From positions 1 to 64,000 of the forward strand of contig CAMHSI010000003.1 of NCBI GenBank assembly GCA_946187775.1: 64,000 nucleotides of DNA. The letters run 5' to 3'. Under the pieces are notes generated by a model, which saw nothing but the letters and a program-made list of their open reading frames with translations, had not been told where the DNA came from and ran no database searches. The first letter of the stretch is position 1; each line of letters starts with the position of its first letter. This stretch comes from an uncultured Clostridia bacterium (GTDB taxonomy: Bacteria; Bacillota; Clostridia; Christensenellales; Aristaeellaceae). Positions 33,064 through 63,964 of this stretch are shown here, piece after piece. The position numbers were made by a program, and so were the translations under genes.

Positions 33064-34266
33064 ATGAACCTTGCCGGCAAAAAGATCGTGCTGGGCGTGA
33101 CGGGAGGCATCGCAGCGTACAAAAGCGCTGAGATTGTCTCCCGTTTGCGTCATCTGGGGGCGGAGGTCCATGTGATCATGACCGAAAACGCCGCAAAGTT
33201 TGTGGCGCCGCTGACCTTCCAGACCCTTTCGGCCAACCCGGTTGTAACGGACACCTTCGCTACGCCGGAAACCTGGAACGTGGAACACGTGGCCCTGGCG
33301 AAGCTGGCGGACATCTTTGTGATTGCGCCGGCCACGGCGAACATCCTGGCGAAAATGGCCTGCGGCATCGCGGACGACATGCTCAGCACCACCGTGCTGG
33401 CCACAAAGGCCCCGGTTCTTGCGGCCCCGGCCATGAACACGGGCATGTGGACCGCGCCGGCCACGGCGCAGAACGTGGAAACCCTCCGGAACCGCGGCGT
33501 GCACATCATCGGCCCGGGCTCCGGCATGCTGGCCTGCGGGGACGAGGGCGCCGGGAGAATGAGCGAGCCGGAGGAGATCGTTGCCGAAATCGAAAGGATT
33601 CTGGCAGCGAAAGCGGACCTGCAGGGACTGAAGGTGCTGGTTACCGCCGGGGCAACCCGGGAGCGGCTGGACCCGGTTCGGTTCCTGACCAACGATTCCA
33701 GCGGAAAGATGGGATTCGCGCTGGCGGAAGCCGCCCGGGACAGGGGAGCCGAGGTTACCCTGGTAAAGGGAAGCACCACGGCGAAGGTTCCTTCCGGGGT
33801 TCGCATCGTTGAAGCGGAATCCGCGGCGGACCTGCTGCGGGCCATGAAAAAGGAAGCGGGACGGCAGGATATTGTGATCCAGGCAGCCGCCGTGGCGGAC
33901 TACCGGCCGGCGACCTTCTCGAAAACAAAGATCAAGAAAAAAGCGGGGGAAGCGCTGACCGTCACCCTGGAGGAGAACCCGGACATCGCGAAGGCGGTGG
34001 GGGCCATGAAGAAAAAAGGCCAGATCCTGGCGGGATTCGCGGCGGAGACGGACCATGTGGTGAAGCACGCGAAGGAAAAGCTTGCCGCCAAGAACCTGGA
34101 CCTGATTGTGGCCAACGACGTAACCCGGCCGGGAGCGGGATTCAACACGGACACAAACATCGTTACGCTGATCACCGCGGATCGGACGGAGGAACTGCCG
34201 ATCATGACCAAGCGGGCAGCGGCGGAAATCATCCTGGACCGGATCCTGGAGATCCGGAAGGGTTAA
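33064..34266 (+). CDS. coaBC: Bifunctional phosphopantothenoylcysteine decarboxylase/synthase
   Basis: LGVTGGIAAYKSAEI; APAMNTGMW; VTAGATRERLDPVRFLTNDSSGKMG. Confidence 0.96.
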   Translation: MNLAGKKIVLGVTGGIAAYKSAEIVSRLRHLGAEVHVIMTENAAKFVAPLTFQTLSANPVVTDTFATPETWNVEHVALAKLADIFVIAPATANILAKMACGIADDMLSTTVLATKAPVLAAPAMNTGMWTAPATAQNVETLRNRGVHIIGPGSGMLACGDEGAGRMSEPEEIVAEIERILAAKADLQGLKVLVTAGATRERLDPVRFLTNDSSGKMGFALAEAARDRGAEVTLVKGSTTAKVPSGVRIVEAESAADLLRAMKKEAGRQDIVIQAAAVADYRPATFSKTKIKKKAGEALTVTLEENPDIAKAVGAMKKKGQILAGFAAETDHVVKHAKEKLAAKNLDLIVANDVTRPGAGFNTDTNIVTLITADRTEELPIMTKRAAAEIILDRILEIRKG

Positions 34267-59816: not shown

Positions 59817-61403
59817 TCAGCGGGTAGTAAAGGATTCTATGCCGCGAAGCAGCTCGTATTCGCGGACATCCCGGCAGGTTGTGTACATATAACGGGAAAT
59901 CACATTCCCGGTGCGCCAGTAGAGGCAGACGAAGGGGCAGTCCGTCAGGAACTGGTGCTGAATCTCCATGAGCTTCTGGCGGTACTCTTCCTGGGTGGTC
60001 TGCTTGCGCAGGCTCTTGAACAGCTCATCCATCCTGCTGCTTTTATAGCGGTTATAGTTTCCGCTTTTGACGTTTTCCGACATCAGCATAAACCCGGGAT
60101 CCGGGGCAGGATCCATGGCAAAGGCGATCAGGGCCAGATCAAAACTGCCGCTGCTGAGCCGTTCCTGGAGGCTTGCCATGGTCATGGCCGTGATTTTGCA
60201 TTCGATCCCAACCTCCGCAAGGGCGGCGGAGATGATGTTGGCAGTTTCCTCGCGGACATCGTTGTCGGGTTCCTCGTAATAGAAGAAACGCAGGTGAAGG
60301 TTTTCCAGCTCGCCGTCACCGTTGATCCGGTCCAGGACGCCGTTTTCATCGGAATCCTCCCAGCCGGCTTCCGCAAGGAGGCGCTTCGCTTCCTCCACAT
60401 CGTGGGTGATGGAGGAATCAAGGCTGTCGTTATACATCCACGTTCCCGGATAGAAGGGGAAATTCGTGGGAACCGCCAGCCCCATATAGGAGGTGGAGAT
60501 GATTTTGCTTTTATCAATCAGGGCGCGGATGGCCTGGCGGACCTCCAGGGTGAGCTCCCGCGCGTTATTGTTCATATACAGGCACTCCAGCTGATTGGTG
60601 CGGTAGCTCATGGTAAGGGAATTCGCGTTTGTTTTATGCTGGGCGCCGGCGATGGAACGGGTAAAGATGGCTTCCACCTGCGCGAACTCATAGCTCTCCA
60701 CAACGGCGGAGGAAGTGTTCTGGAACATGAAGAGGATTTCGCGGACCTGCGGCTGGGCCTTCCACCAGTTTGTGTTGGCGGAGAGCCACATCCTTTCCCC
60801 GGCATGGAATTCCGTGATGACATAGGGCCCTGTTCCGGGAGGATTGTCAACGGTTTCATAGCCTGCCGGGACGATGGGGAAGGTCATCTGGAACAGAAGG
60901 CCGTAATAAGGCCTTTTTGCCGTAACGGTGACGGTGTAGTCATCCTTTGCGTCGACGGAATCCACAAAGCGGTTCAGGTTCTGGTAGAAGCCGTGGTCCG
61001 TGATGTTGGTATCCTGCGCCTTTGCAAGGATATAATTGACGGACGAGACCACATCCCTGGCGGAGAAAGGAATTCCATTGGAAAAACGGACATCCTCCCG
61101 CAGATGGAAGGTCCAGACCTTTCCGCTGGCGGACACTTCCCAGCTTTCCGCAAGGCAGGGCTGGGGAAGATAGCTGTCATCCAGCGAGACCAGGGATTCG
61201 TAGACCATATTGTAGGCGGAAAGGATATCCGCCTCCACGGGCTCAAAGGGGCGGACGAGGAGCGTCTTCGAGGACTGGATGGCGATGACGATACTGTCAC
61301 CGATTTCCGCCGAGGAGGCTGAAGCGCCCGAAAGAAACAGCAGAAGGATCGCCACCGTCCAGCAGCAGATCCTCAGAAAAGTATTTCGCCCGGTAAATGC
61401 CAT
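59817..61403 (-). CDS. ABC transporter substrate-binding protein, family 5 (peptide/nickel type)
   Basis: Signal peptide; AESWEVSASGKVWTFHLREDVRFSNGIPFSARDVVSSVNYI signature; GTGPYVI. Confidence 0.92.
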   Translation of the reverse strand: MAFTGRNTFLRICCWTVAILLLFLSGASASSAEIGDSIVIAIQSSKTLLVRPFEPVEADILSAYNMVYESLVSLDDSYLPQPCLAESWEVSASGKVWTFHLREDVRFSNGIPFSARDVVSSVNYILAKAQDTNITDHGFYQNLNRFVDSVDAKDDYTVTVTAKRPYYGLLFQMTFPIVPAGYETVDNPPGTGPYVITEFHAGERMWLSANTNWWKAQPQVREILFMFQNTSSAVVESYEFAQVEAIFTRSIAGAQHKTNANSLTMSYRTNQLECLYMNNNARELTLEVRQAIRALIDKSKIISTSYMGLAVPTNFPFYPGTWMYNDSLDSSITHDVEEAKRLLAEAGWEDSDENGVLDRINGDGELENLHLRFFYYEEPDNDVREETANIISAALAEVGIECKITAMTMASLQERLSSGSFDLALIAFAMDPAPDPGFMLMSENVKSGNYNRYKSSRMDELFKSLRKQTTQEEYRQKLMEIQHQFLTDCPFVCLYWRTGNVISRYMYTTCRDVREYELLRGIESFTTR

Positions 61404-62724
61404 AGTCTCTTAACACCCTTCCTGCGTACTGTTTTGTAGGCCCGTCCTGCAATGTATCGATACGGAGCGAGTATCCGTCATCGCTGTGGACCGGATCCGA
61501 AAGCCAGACCTTGACCTGGCCCTGGCCGGCGTGATAAGCCGCGGCAACCGCGGCCGGATCCCCGAGAAAGAGCCTGCTGAGATAATTGAGGTACCAGCAG
61601 CCGAAGCGGATGTTGGATTCAGGATCGTACATCCGCTCAAAGGCGTAACCGCTGACCCGAAGCTTTCCGGCGATCCATTCCGCCGTATCGGGCATCAGCT
61701 GCATGAGGCCCCGGGCGCCGACGCCGGATTCCGCATCCGGACGGAAGGAGCTTTCATTCCGGATGATGGCGGAGACAAAAGCCGGAGCCAGGTTGTATTC
61801 CCCTGCATACTGCTCGATAAGATCCCGGTAGAGCAGGGGATAATTGGCATCGATGGCTTTCTGCTCCCTGATATGCTGTTCCTCACAGGTGCGAAGGTAC
61901 GCGCTCATCAGGAGAGAGGCGGTAATTCCGACCAGCAGGACGGCAGTCGCCGCAATCAGGGAGGACATGAGCCACACCGGCATCCTCCAGCTGGCTTTCC
62001 TGTTTTTCTGGCGCGCGGAGGCTCCGTCGGGACGTTCCATGGTGACGGGAGGCTCCTGGGATTTCGCGGGCACATACGGCACGGGAGCAGCGGGCTCCCG
62101 GGACCGGCGGACAGGGGAGGAAGCGGCAGGGGCGGAGAGTTCTTCGTCGAGAAGATCCGCAACGACGGACAGGGTCTGTTCCGGAGTGCCGGAATTATCG
62201 ATGACCCGGTCTGCCAGGGACGCTTTCTCATCCGACGACAGAACGGAACGAATGCGGGACATGGCTTCCTCCCGGGTGTACCCGTCCCGGGCCATGAGGC
62301 GGGAAAGCTGCAGATCGAGGGGAAGCCAGACGGTCCAGACGGTATCGCAGAGCCGGTTATACCCCTTTTCAAAGAGGAGCGGCATATCCAGGAAACAAAG
62401 GGGAGCGCCGGAGGAACGGATCTCCTCGATGCGGCGGCGGGTCAGCGCCATAAGATGGGGCGCCATCAACTCATCCAGCCGGCGGCGGGCGGAGGGATCA
62501 TTGAAAACGAGCCGGCCCAGGCGCCGCCGGTTCAGCGTTCCGTCCTCACAGAGGACACCCGTGCCAAAGGCCTGTACGATTTCGGGGACGGCGGCTCCGC
62601 CGGGAGCGGTGAGCTCCCGGGAAATCCGGTCCCCGTCTATGACGGGAAAGCCCCGGGAAAGCAGGTAGGCGCTGACGGTGGATTTTCCGCAGGCTATACT
62701 TCCTGTTAATCCGATAATACGCAT
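61297..62724 (-). CDS. coaE: Fusion protein: dephospho-CoA kinase (CoaE) - TM helix - lytic transglycosylase (Slt)
   Basis: N-terminal IIGLTGSIACGKSTVSAYLLSRGFPVIDGDRISREL; TM WLMSSLIAATAVLLVGITASLLMSAYL; C-terminal YNLAPAFVSAIIRNESSFRPDAESGVGARGLMQLMPDTAEWIA. Confidence 0.92.
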   Translation of the reverse strand: MRIIGLTGSIACGKSTVSAYLLSRGFPVIDGDRISRELTAPGGAAVPEIVQAFGTGVLCEDGTLNRRRLGRLVFNDPSARRRLDELMAPHLMALTRRRIEEIRSSGAPLCFLDMPLLFEKGYNRLCDTVWTVWLPLDLQLSRLMARDGYTREEAMSRIRSVLSSDEKASLADRVIDNSGTPEQTLSVVADLLDEELSAPAASSPVRRSREPAAPVPYVPAKSQEPPVTMERPDGASARQKNRKASWRMPVWLMSSLIAATAVLLVGITASLLMSAYLRTCEEQHIREQKAIDANYPLLYRDLIEQYAGEYNLAPAFVSAIIRNESSFRPDAESGVGARGLMQLMPDTAEWIAGKLRVSGYAFERMYDPESNIRFGCWYLNYLSRLFLGDPAAVAAAYHAGQGQVKVWLSDPVHSDDGYSLRIDTLQDGPTKQYAGRVLRDYGIYRAKYFSEDLLLDGGDPSAVSFGRFSLLGGNR

Positions 62725-62797: not shown

Positions 62798-63964
62798 TCA
62801 GACGTTGGTGGAAAGGAGCTTTTTCTTCAGCTCGGCTTCCATATTGTAGAGGGTCTTTTCCGCCTCGATCCGCTTGGCACGGCCTTCAGACTGGATGTTC
62901 ATAACCTCGTTGATCGTATCGATGAGATCCTGGTTGGTCTGCACAAGGGTTTCGATATCGATGATGCCGCGCTCAGCCTCCTTGGCGGTCTGGACGGTTC
63001 CGACCTTCAGGGCTTCGGCGTTCTTGCGGAGAAGCTCATTGGTCATATCGGTAACGGCTGTCTGGGCCTGGAGGGCCTGCTGGGAATGATGCATTCCGAG
63101 GGCAAGCACCATCTGGCTCTTCCAGAGGGGAAGCGTGTTGGAAAGGGTGGACTGAATCCGCTCCACCAGCAGGCTGTCATTATTCTGAAGCAGGCGGATC
63201 TGCGGAGCCATCTGAATGGAAACCTGGCGGGTCAGCTTGAGGTCGTAGAGCTTTTTCTCAAAACGGTCGCACTGGGCGGCAAGGTCGTTGGCCTTCTGGG
63301 CGTCCATGGCGTCACCGGACTGGGCGGCCTTTTCCTGCAGCTCTTTGAGCTCGGTGGCACGAACCTGCGCCAGCTTTTTATCCCCGGCGATGATATAGAG
63401 GGTGAGCTGATGGAAATAATCGTTGTTCTGATCGTAAAGCCGGTCGAACATGGCGACATCCTTGAGCAGCTGGGTCTGGTAGCCCTCGAGGGAACCGGCG
63501 ATGTTTTCCACATTGGCGGAAACCTTGTTGTAGCGGGCCTTCATCCGGGTGATCTTATCCTCAGCCTTGGAGAAAAGCTTTGCAAGGCCTTTGGGCTCTT
63601 CAGAATCCTTCTGGAAGCCTTTCAATTCGGAAACGAGGTTCACCAGCATGTTTCCGACTTCGCCGGTTTCCTGGGTCCTGACGGCGTCAAGGGCGGTTTC
63701 GGAGAAATCGGCAATCTTCTTCTGGGCGTCAGCACCGAAAAGCAGGACGTGATCGGGGTTTGTAACGTCCACTTTCTGGATGAATTCATCAATGGCCTTC
63801 TTTTCCGCATCGGTCAGCTGGCTTTCATCCAGCTTCGGGGCGGCCGTTTCCGGGGCGGAAGCGGCGGGAGCCTGCTGAATGCTCTCGGCGGAGCCGGCGG
63901 GAGCTTCAGGTTCGGGAGCGGAAGGCGCGAGGGAAAGCTGAAGCATCGGATTGGATTCGGACAT
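62798..63964 (-). CDS. TelA family (toxic anion resistance) protein
   Basis: Coiled-coil/alpha-helical TelA-like; LYDQNNDYFHQLTLYIIAGDKKL; LPLWKSQMVLALGMHHSQQALQAQTAVTDMTNELL; AAGGAGG RBS. Confidence 0.92.
   Translation of the reverse strand: MSESNPMLQLSLAPSAPEPEAPAGSAESIQQAPAASAPETAAPKLDESQLTDAEKKAIDEFIQKVDVTNPDHVLLFGADAQKKIADFSETALDAVRTQETGEVGNMLVNLVSELKGFQKDSEEPKGLAKLFSKAEDKITRMKARYNKVSANVENIAGSLEGYQTQLLKDVAMFDRLYDQNNDYFHQLTLYIIAGDKKLAQVRATELKELQEKAAQSGDAMDAQKANDLAAQCDRFEKKLYDLKLTRQVSIQMAPQIRLLQNNDSLLVERIQSTLSNTLPLWKSQMVLALGMHHSQQALQAQTAVTDMTNELLRKNAEALKVGTVQTAKEAERGIIDIETLVQTNQDLIDTINEVMNIQSEGRAKRIEAEKTLYNMEAELKKKLLSTNV

Follow-up and report, generated by a model that had tools for sequence, protein, structure and literature searches.

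The window analysed here, a stretch of 64,000 nucleotides from an uncultured Clostridia bacterium, carries a single gene in which dephospho-CoA kinase (CoaE), the last enzyme of CoA synthesis and normally a small and soluble protein, is joined through a transmembrane (TM) helix to an SLT lytic transglycosylase. The same fusion is present in every CoaE-bearing genome sampled from the GTDB genus of the window, and it contains the only CoaE of those genomes. The explanation regarded as likely is an old and fixed fusion of two operon genes that would give rise to a bitopic two-enzyme protein, with the kinase inside, the transglycosylase outside, and the two halves working independently of each other.

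Domain Architecture and Predicted Topology

The fusion gene, its parts, and its neighbors are located in the window as follows.

61297 to 62724, reverse strand: coaE-slt fusion gene, one uninterrupted ORF of 475 aa from ATG to stop
62185 to 62724, reverse strand: CoaE (dephospho-CoA kinase) domain, aa 1-180, identified by PF01121, TIGR00152, motifs, and Foldseek
62677 to 62703, reverse strand: Walker A motif GSIACGKST, aa 8-16, identified by motif conservation
62242 to 62244, reverse strand: codon of Val161, a residue that is Val in 33/33 fused and Gln in 121/121 separate CoaE
61990 to 62172, reverse strand: Pro/Ala/Arg-rich disordered linker, aa 185-245, delimited by sister SLT tail motifs, pLDDT, and dN/dS
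61900 to 61977, reverse strand: predicted TM helix, aa ~250-275, hydropathy about 2.1, with the positive side on the linker side
61495 to 61821, reverse strand: SLT lytic transglycosylase domain, aa 302-410, catalytic Glu324, identified by PF01464, conservation, and Foldseek
61297 to 61371, reverse strand: poorly conserved C-terminal tail, aa 452-475, pLDDT below 50, overlapping the start of the next gene
62798 to 63964, reverse strand: TelA family gene, the upstream neighbor, by conserved synteny
59817 to 61403, reverse strand: family 5 extracellular solute-binding protein gene, the downstream neighbor, by conserved synteny

The first-pass annotation of this DNA had described an uninterrupted frame of 475 aa encoding a complete CoaE and an SLT domain, and this description is borne out, with both domains complete, by the ORF itself as well as by the Pfam and NCBIfam searches. 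The CoaE family PF01121 matches residues 3-180 with an E-value of 3e-53 (180.5 bits against a cut-off of 27), the equivalog model TIGR00152, 'dephospho-CoA kinase', is matched at 152.5 bits against a cut-off of 65.55, and PF01464 covers residues 302-410 with an E-value of 2.5e-27. The Walker A, PLLFE, and DxD motifs of the kinase and the catalytic NES...GLMQLMP signature of the transglycosylase are all present. An AlphaFold2 model built with 27 orthologues contains two confident domains, a disordered segment at residues 202-243 (pLDDT below 50), a helix at 250-294, and a disordered tail at 452-475. In Foldseek comparisons, the CoaE half resembles the solved CoaE structures of Burkholderia and E. 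coli and mouse CoA synthase (E 1e-14), while the SLT half resembles Slt of Pseudomonas and Slt70.

The hydrophobic TM segment, which had been noted earlier in this region, is located at about 61900-61977 (aa 250-275) and is contained in the modelled helix 250-294. Across the 33 orthologues of the genus, the 15 residues before this segment contain a mean of 4.5 Lys and Arg residues and the 15 residues after it a mean of 2.2, with acidic residues showing the opposite bias. By the positive-inside rule, this charge bias would place the kinase in the cytoplasm and the transglycosylase outside, which supports the predicted topology that the earlier annotation had put forward. At the downstream end, the last 35 codons of the fusion gene overlap the start of the solute-binding protein gene by 107 nt (window 61297-61403). 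The latter gene begins with an ATG at 61403 and encodes a typical signal peptide, and the overlapping C-terminal residues of the fusion protein are disordered in the model.

Distribution in the Genus

A sample of 45 genomes from the GTDB genus of the window was searched with the CoaE family. Exactly one CoaE scored over the cut-off in 33 of them, each within an ORF of ~470-560 aa that also encodes SLT, and none of the 13 genomes with a completeness of 90% or more lacks the fused CoaE. The fusion was observed in the single-contig genomes G023 and G035 and in the near-closed genomes G002 and G213. The first-pass annotation had called for a search of related genomes and had named separate genes in close relatives as evidence against a true fusion; within the genus, the fusion was recovered and no separate pair was found in any of the CoaE-bearing genomes (33/33 fused).

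The remaining 12 of the 45 genomes, 54-85% complete, yielded no CoaE. Because the neighbors TelA and PrmA, for which the synteny loci served as positive controls, are missing from the same 12 assemblies, the absence of CoaE is attributed to incomplete assembly of this block, and loss or splitting of the fusion in these genomes was rejected. One fused gene, L020 (genome G004, 1501-2949), has an SLT half only 43% identical to that of the window, with a CoaE half at 66%, while the SLT halves of the other species are 60-79% identical to that of the window, suggesting fast evolution or domain replacement in L020.

Origin from Adjacent Genes

Outside the genus, coaE and slt are two ORFs, nearly always adjacent, in further genera of the family (g26-g36) and in the other examined families of the order. 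Separate adjacent pairs also occur in the examined loci of Selenomonas, Paenibacillus, Brevibacillus, and Clostridia, so that the earlier remark that coaE-slt adjacency is common in Bacillota agrees with the loci examined outside the genus. The separate pairs of Clostridia, Negativicutes, and Paenibacillaceae agree with the fusion in gene content, order, and strand, and those of the sister lineages also match the fusion locus in the neighbors TelA, SBP, and PrmA. They differ from the fusion in having two ORFs, each with its own start, stop, and ribosome-binding site, and in encoding a soluble CoaE with Gln161. The coaE stop and the downstream slt start of the closest lineages are mostly 16-23 nt apart, with a few pairs closer or overlapping, and a strong Shine-Dalgarno sequence precedes the slt gene in 19/19 sister cases (mean -10.6 kcal/mol). 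The TelA-family gene upstream of coaE in fused and unfused relatives belongs to a family labelled 'toxic anion resistance'.

The operon order TelA-coaE-slt-SBP_bac_5-PrmA is common to fused and unfused relatives. In a maximum-likelihood tree of both domains, the 33 fused proteins form one branch with a support of 99, requiring one state change, and FastTree gives this branch a support of 0.957. The single change on the tree and the shared operon order indicate that the fusion arose once, in place, through loss of the intergenic stop and start signals; the suggestion that two adjacent genes had simply fused is thereby upheld by the sister operons and the single branch. Independent fusions elsewhere were sought by inspecting the fusion-like loci of G037, G039, G048, G235, and G289, none of which was fused. 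Among the phylum-level matches listed, 40 loci whose frame was long or whose match covered both halves were inspected, and none was found to be fused.

The Linker

In the sister lineages, the separate SLT carries a Pro-rich cytoplasmic N-terminal tail, which starts with METPTPxPQRNRRADRY and ends before the TM helix in a motif such as VMERPKAPARRVRKPSHRMPLWL. The fused linkers contain RRRRSxRY near the end of CoaE and MERPxSxRRKPSxRKxxWxMPxWL ahead of the TM helix, and motifs of this kind, RRxRRADRY and MERPxxxxRK..RMPxWL, occur in the tails of the separate sister SLT. The linker motifs found in these tails point to the linker being the old SLT tail rather than new sequence, that is, to its derivation from the cytoplasmic N-tail of an ancestral separate SLT. 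The sister lineages also include separate SLT with very long Pro/Gln-rich cytoplasmic tails (L062, L064, L068, L070, L071, L075, and L076), and sister-lineage tails can reach more than 200 residues N-terminal to the TM helix.

The length of the linker takes 23 different values among the 33 proteins, the span from CoaE to the TM helix ranging over 66-105 aa and always remaining in frame. No stop occurs among 2446 linker codons, though the probability of a stop per codon is about 0.022. The dN/dS of the linker, obtained from the 12 closest pairs, is 0-0.45, with values of 0.04-0.23 for CoaE and 0.07-0.17 for SLT, which indicates purifying selection on the linker despite its changes in length. 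The constant frame, the lack of stops, and these dN/dS values together argue strongly for translation of the linker.

Catalytic Motifs and Copy Number

The CoaE half retains the hallmarks of the enzyme, namely the Walker A Lys, the DxD motif with catalytic Asp32, the lid residue Arg142, and PLLxE; K14, D30, D32, E119, R142, and R146 are invariant in the 33 fused proteins. In the SLT half, which has a lysozyme-like fold, E324, S325, G339, M341, and Q342 are invariant, and the catalytic Glu324 is conserved in the 33 fused proteins and in 81 separate homologues. The motif AYNAG is replaced by AYHAG in 32/33 fused proteins; since the His is also found in 35/81 separate homologues, the replacement probably represents lineage variation rather than damage.

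The fused CoaE is the single CoaE per genome in the 33 CoaE-bearing genomes, so that, without processing, bacteria of the genus would have no free cytosolic CoaE. An archaeal-type dephospho-CoA kinase (PF04019, DUF359-type) was sought in the genus genomes and not found, with positive controls that worked; a second CoaE or an archaeal-type enzyme acting as a backup kinase was therefore rejected. CoaBC is present in the genomes checked, which indicates that the CoA pathway is in use, and a DFP/CoaBC domain is encoded in the window at 33619-34173 on the forward strand, ~28 kb from the fusion. That genomes encoding CoaBC have no CoaE-type gene besides the fusion lends indirect support to its presumed dephospho-CoA kinase activity. 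The fusion is likewise the sole PF01464 gene in 9/9 genomes checked, 8 of which are at least 95% complete.

Derived Residues of the Fused Form

Position 161 is the only kinase column that parts the 33 fused proteins perfectly from the 121 separate CoaE sequences, 17 sister sequences included among the latter, and Gln161 is also found in the aligned Burkholderia, Thermus, E. coli, and mouse sequences. In the AlphaFold2 model, residue 161 is situated past the lid in a loop joining helices 151-159 and 164-170. In M. tuberculosis CoaE, Ala157 and Ala158 were placed near dephospho-CoA by docking (PMC2765170), and counting from shared motifs suggests that they correspond to the residues just before position 161. 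Q161V shows a change of the kinase on the branch of the fusion itself, and the activity or regulation of the enzyme may be altered by it. Additionally, two residues of the SLT half that flank the TM helix, W246 and H284, are nearly exclusive to the fused form, so that the protein may have adapted in part to being fused. Since the substitutions and the fusion share one stem branch, they amount to one phylogenetic observation and do not lend independent support to a functional link.

Relationship to Known Systems

In a search of open-access papers, no report of a CoaE-SLT fusion was found, and the fusion is regarded as a new domain architecture made of known parts. A fusion of CoaE with UPF0157 (GrpB) has been described in mycobacteria and other actinobacteria (NF002879/PRK03333; PMC2765170), which shares with the window fusion an N-terminal CoaE and an extra C-terminal domain in one chain; its extra domain, however, is a cytosolic UPF0157 needed for folding, whereas the window fusion has a TM helix and SLT instead. 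Membership in this family was rejected, as the window fusion scores 144 bits against the NF002879 cut-off of 215, through its kinase part only, and the Pfam scan revealed no UPF0157 domain. In eukaryotic CoA synthase, a PPAT-DPCK fusion reported to reside at the outer mitochondrial membrane (PMC10054636), the partner of DPCK is the preceding CoA enzyme and not a wall hydrolase, and both activities are in one compartment.

Among transglycosylases, XAC4296 of Xanthomonas likewise joins a lytic transglycosylase and a metabolic enzyme, in one lineage and with a single origin, although it combines SLT_2 of transglycosylase family 3B with aldose 1-epimerase and its parts came from unlinked loci (PMC9143381). 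The family 1 transglycosylases Slt70 of E. coli and Slt of P. aeruginosa share with the SLT half the catalytic domain, the ES and GLMQ motifs, and the fold. The SLT half differs from them in having an N-terminal helix anchor without the superhelical U/L domains, and in carrying AYHAG, as in the sister separate enzymes, in place of AYNAG.

Proposed Origin and Alternative Explanations

In the last common ancestor of the genus, the stop and the ribosome-binding site between the operon neighbors coaE and slt would have been lost, creating one frame that has since been retained. The product would be one bitopic membrane protein, in which the only CoaE of the cell would be held at the cytoplasmic face, connected by the disordered linker of 66-105 residues to one TM helix, with the SLT domain outside. 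Each half would act in its own compartment, phosphorylating dephospho-CoA inside and cleaving peptidoglycan outside; what the sequences themselves establish is one ORF with one origin, its conservation, the sole copies, and the intact motifs, while we infer that it is translated as one chain with the predicted topology and that both halves are active and uncoupled. Tethering would set a 1:1 ratio of the two enzymes and confine the kinase to the membrane; as the substrate of CoaE is small and diffusible, such placement should be tolerable. Catalytic coupling would not be required to account for the persistence of the fusion, since the gene could be split again only if a stop, a ribosome-binding site, and a start all arose anew, which is enough to explain it. 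Q161V, the TM-flanking W246 and H284, and the GGAGG sites of the window copy count against this explanation.

The fragmented state of the window's own genome assembly, which is 64% complete, would leave room for an assembly or sequencing artefact that joined two genes, but the same join recurs in 33 independent genomes, single-contig ones among them, and the linker combines a dN/dS below 1 with 2446 codons free of stops; assembly error was accordingly rejected as the origin of the fusion and is refuted for practical purposes, its probability being close to nil. A route to distinct proteins, in which either translation initiates within the linker or a protease cuts the linker or stalk, so that CoaE is released and SLT stays anchored, is given a very small probability. 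Proteases could plausibly attack so long and disordered a linker, yet the aligned sequences, inspected by eye, contain no conserved AxA-type signal peptidase site past the helix. An internal ribosome-binding site and start giving two products had been raised by the first-pass annotation; a conserved one was sought in all 33 fused genes and not found, although GGAGG sequences that look like chance occurrences precede the in-frame GTG250/ATG253 of the window copy. A fair internal Shine-Dalgarno sequence with a start is present there and in L003 (ATG239), L004 (ATG199), and L026/L050 (ATG188), but such sites are weak on average (mean -5.2 kcal/mol, against -10.6 at the sister slt start), vary in position, and fall below -6 kcal/mol in only 9/33 genes, and no position of the linker has a conserved Met. 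A minor internal translation product is thus possible in a few species, that of the window among them.

Functional coupling, in which a membrane-anchored sole kinase and sole SLT would coordinate the supply of CoA (for lipids and precursors) with wall turnover, or would sense through the TM helix, is judged unlikely. Each partner is the sole member of its family in the genomes checked, but the disordered, fast-evolving linker would be a poor conduit for allostery, and the sister SLT already had its tail and TM helix before the fusion. The lack of reversion in 33 species would fit coupling, yet it is accounted for by the need to keep an essential or useful downstream domain in frame. Q161V next to the substrate region and W246 and H284 flanking the TM helix would fit coupling, as would the precedent of XAC4296, where supplementing carbon or nitrogen rescued the mutant phenotypes (PMC9143381); against this, the fusion is one event, with no convergent fusion in the genomes examined. 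A kinase re-tuned by Q161V, W246, and H284, with CoA being made at the sites of wall turnover or in amounts set by them, is held to be no likelier. The data fit a single loss of the stop between the two genes, followed by fixation, just as well as they fit coordination of CoA and the wall, and the coupling of CoA supply with wall remodelling that had been proposed at first is possible but unsupported.

Significance

In the species of this genus, the sole CoaE appears to form the cytoplasmic part of a wall enzyme that is anchored in the membrane. They would thus represent a natural experiment in which an essential cytosolic kinase is fixed to the membrane, with the ancestral two-gene state available in the sister lineages for comparison. 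The fusion also poses a sharply defined question, namely what Gln161, invariant in the separate CoaE compared, does in the enzyme, and whether a kinase with Val at this position stays fully active.
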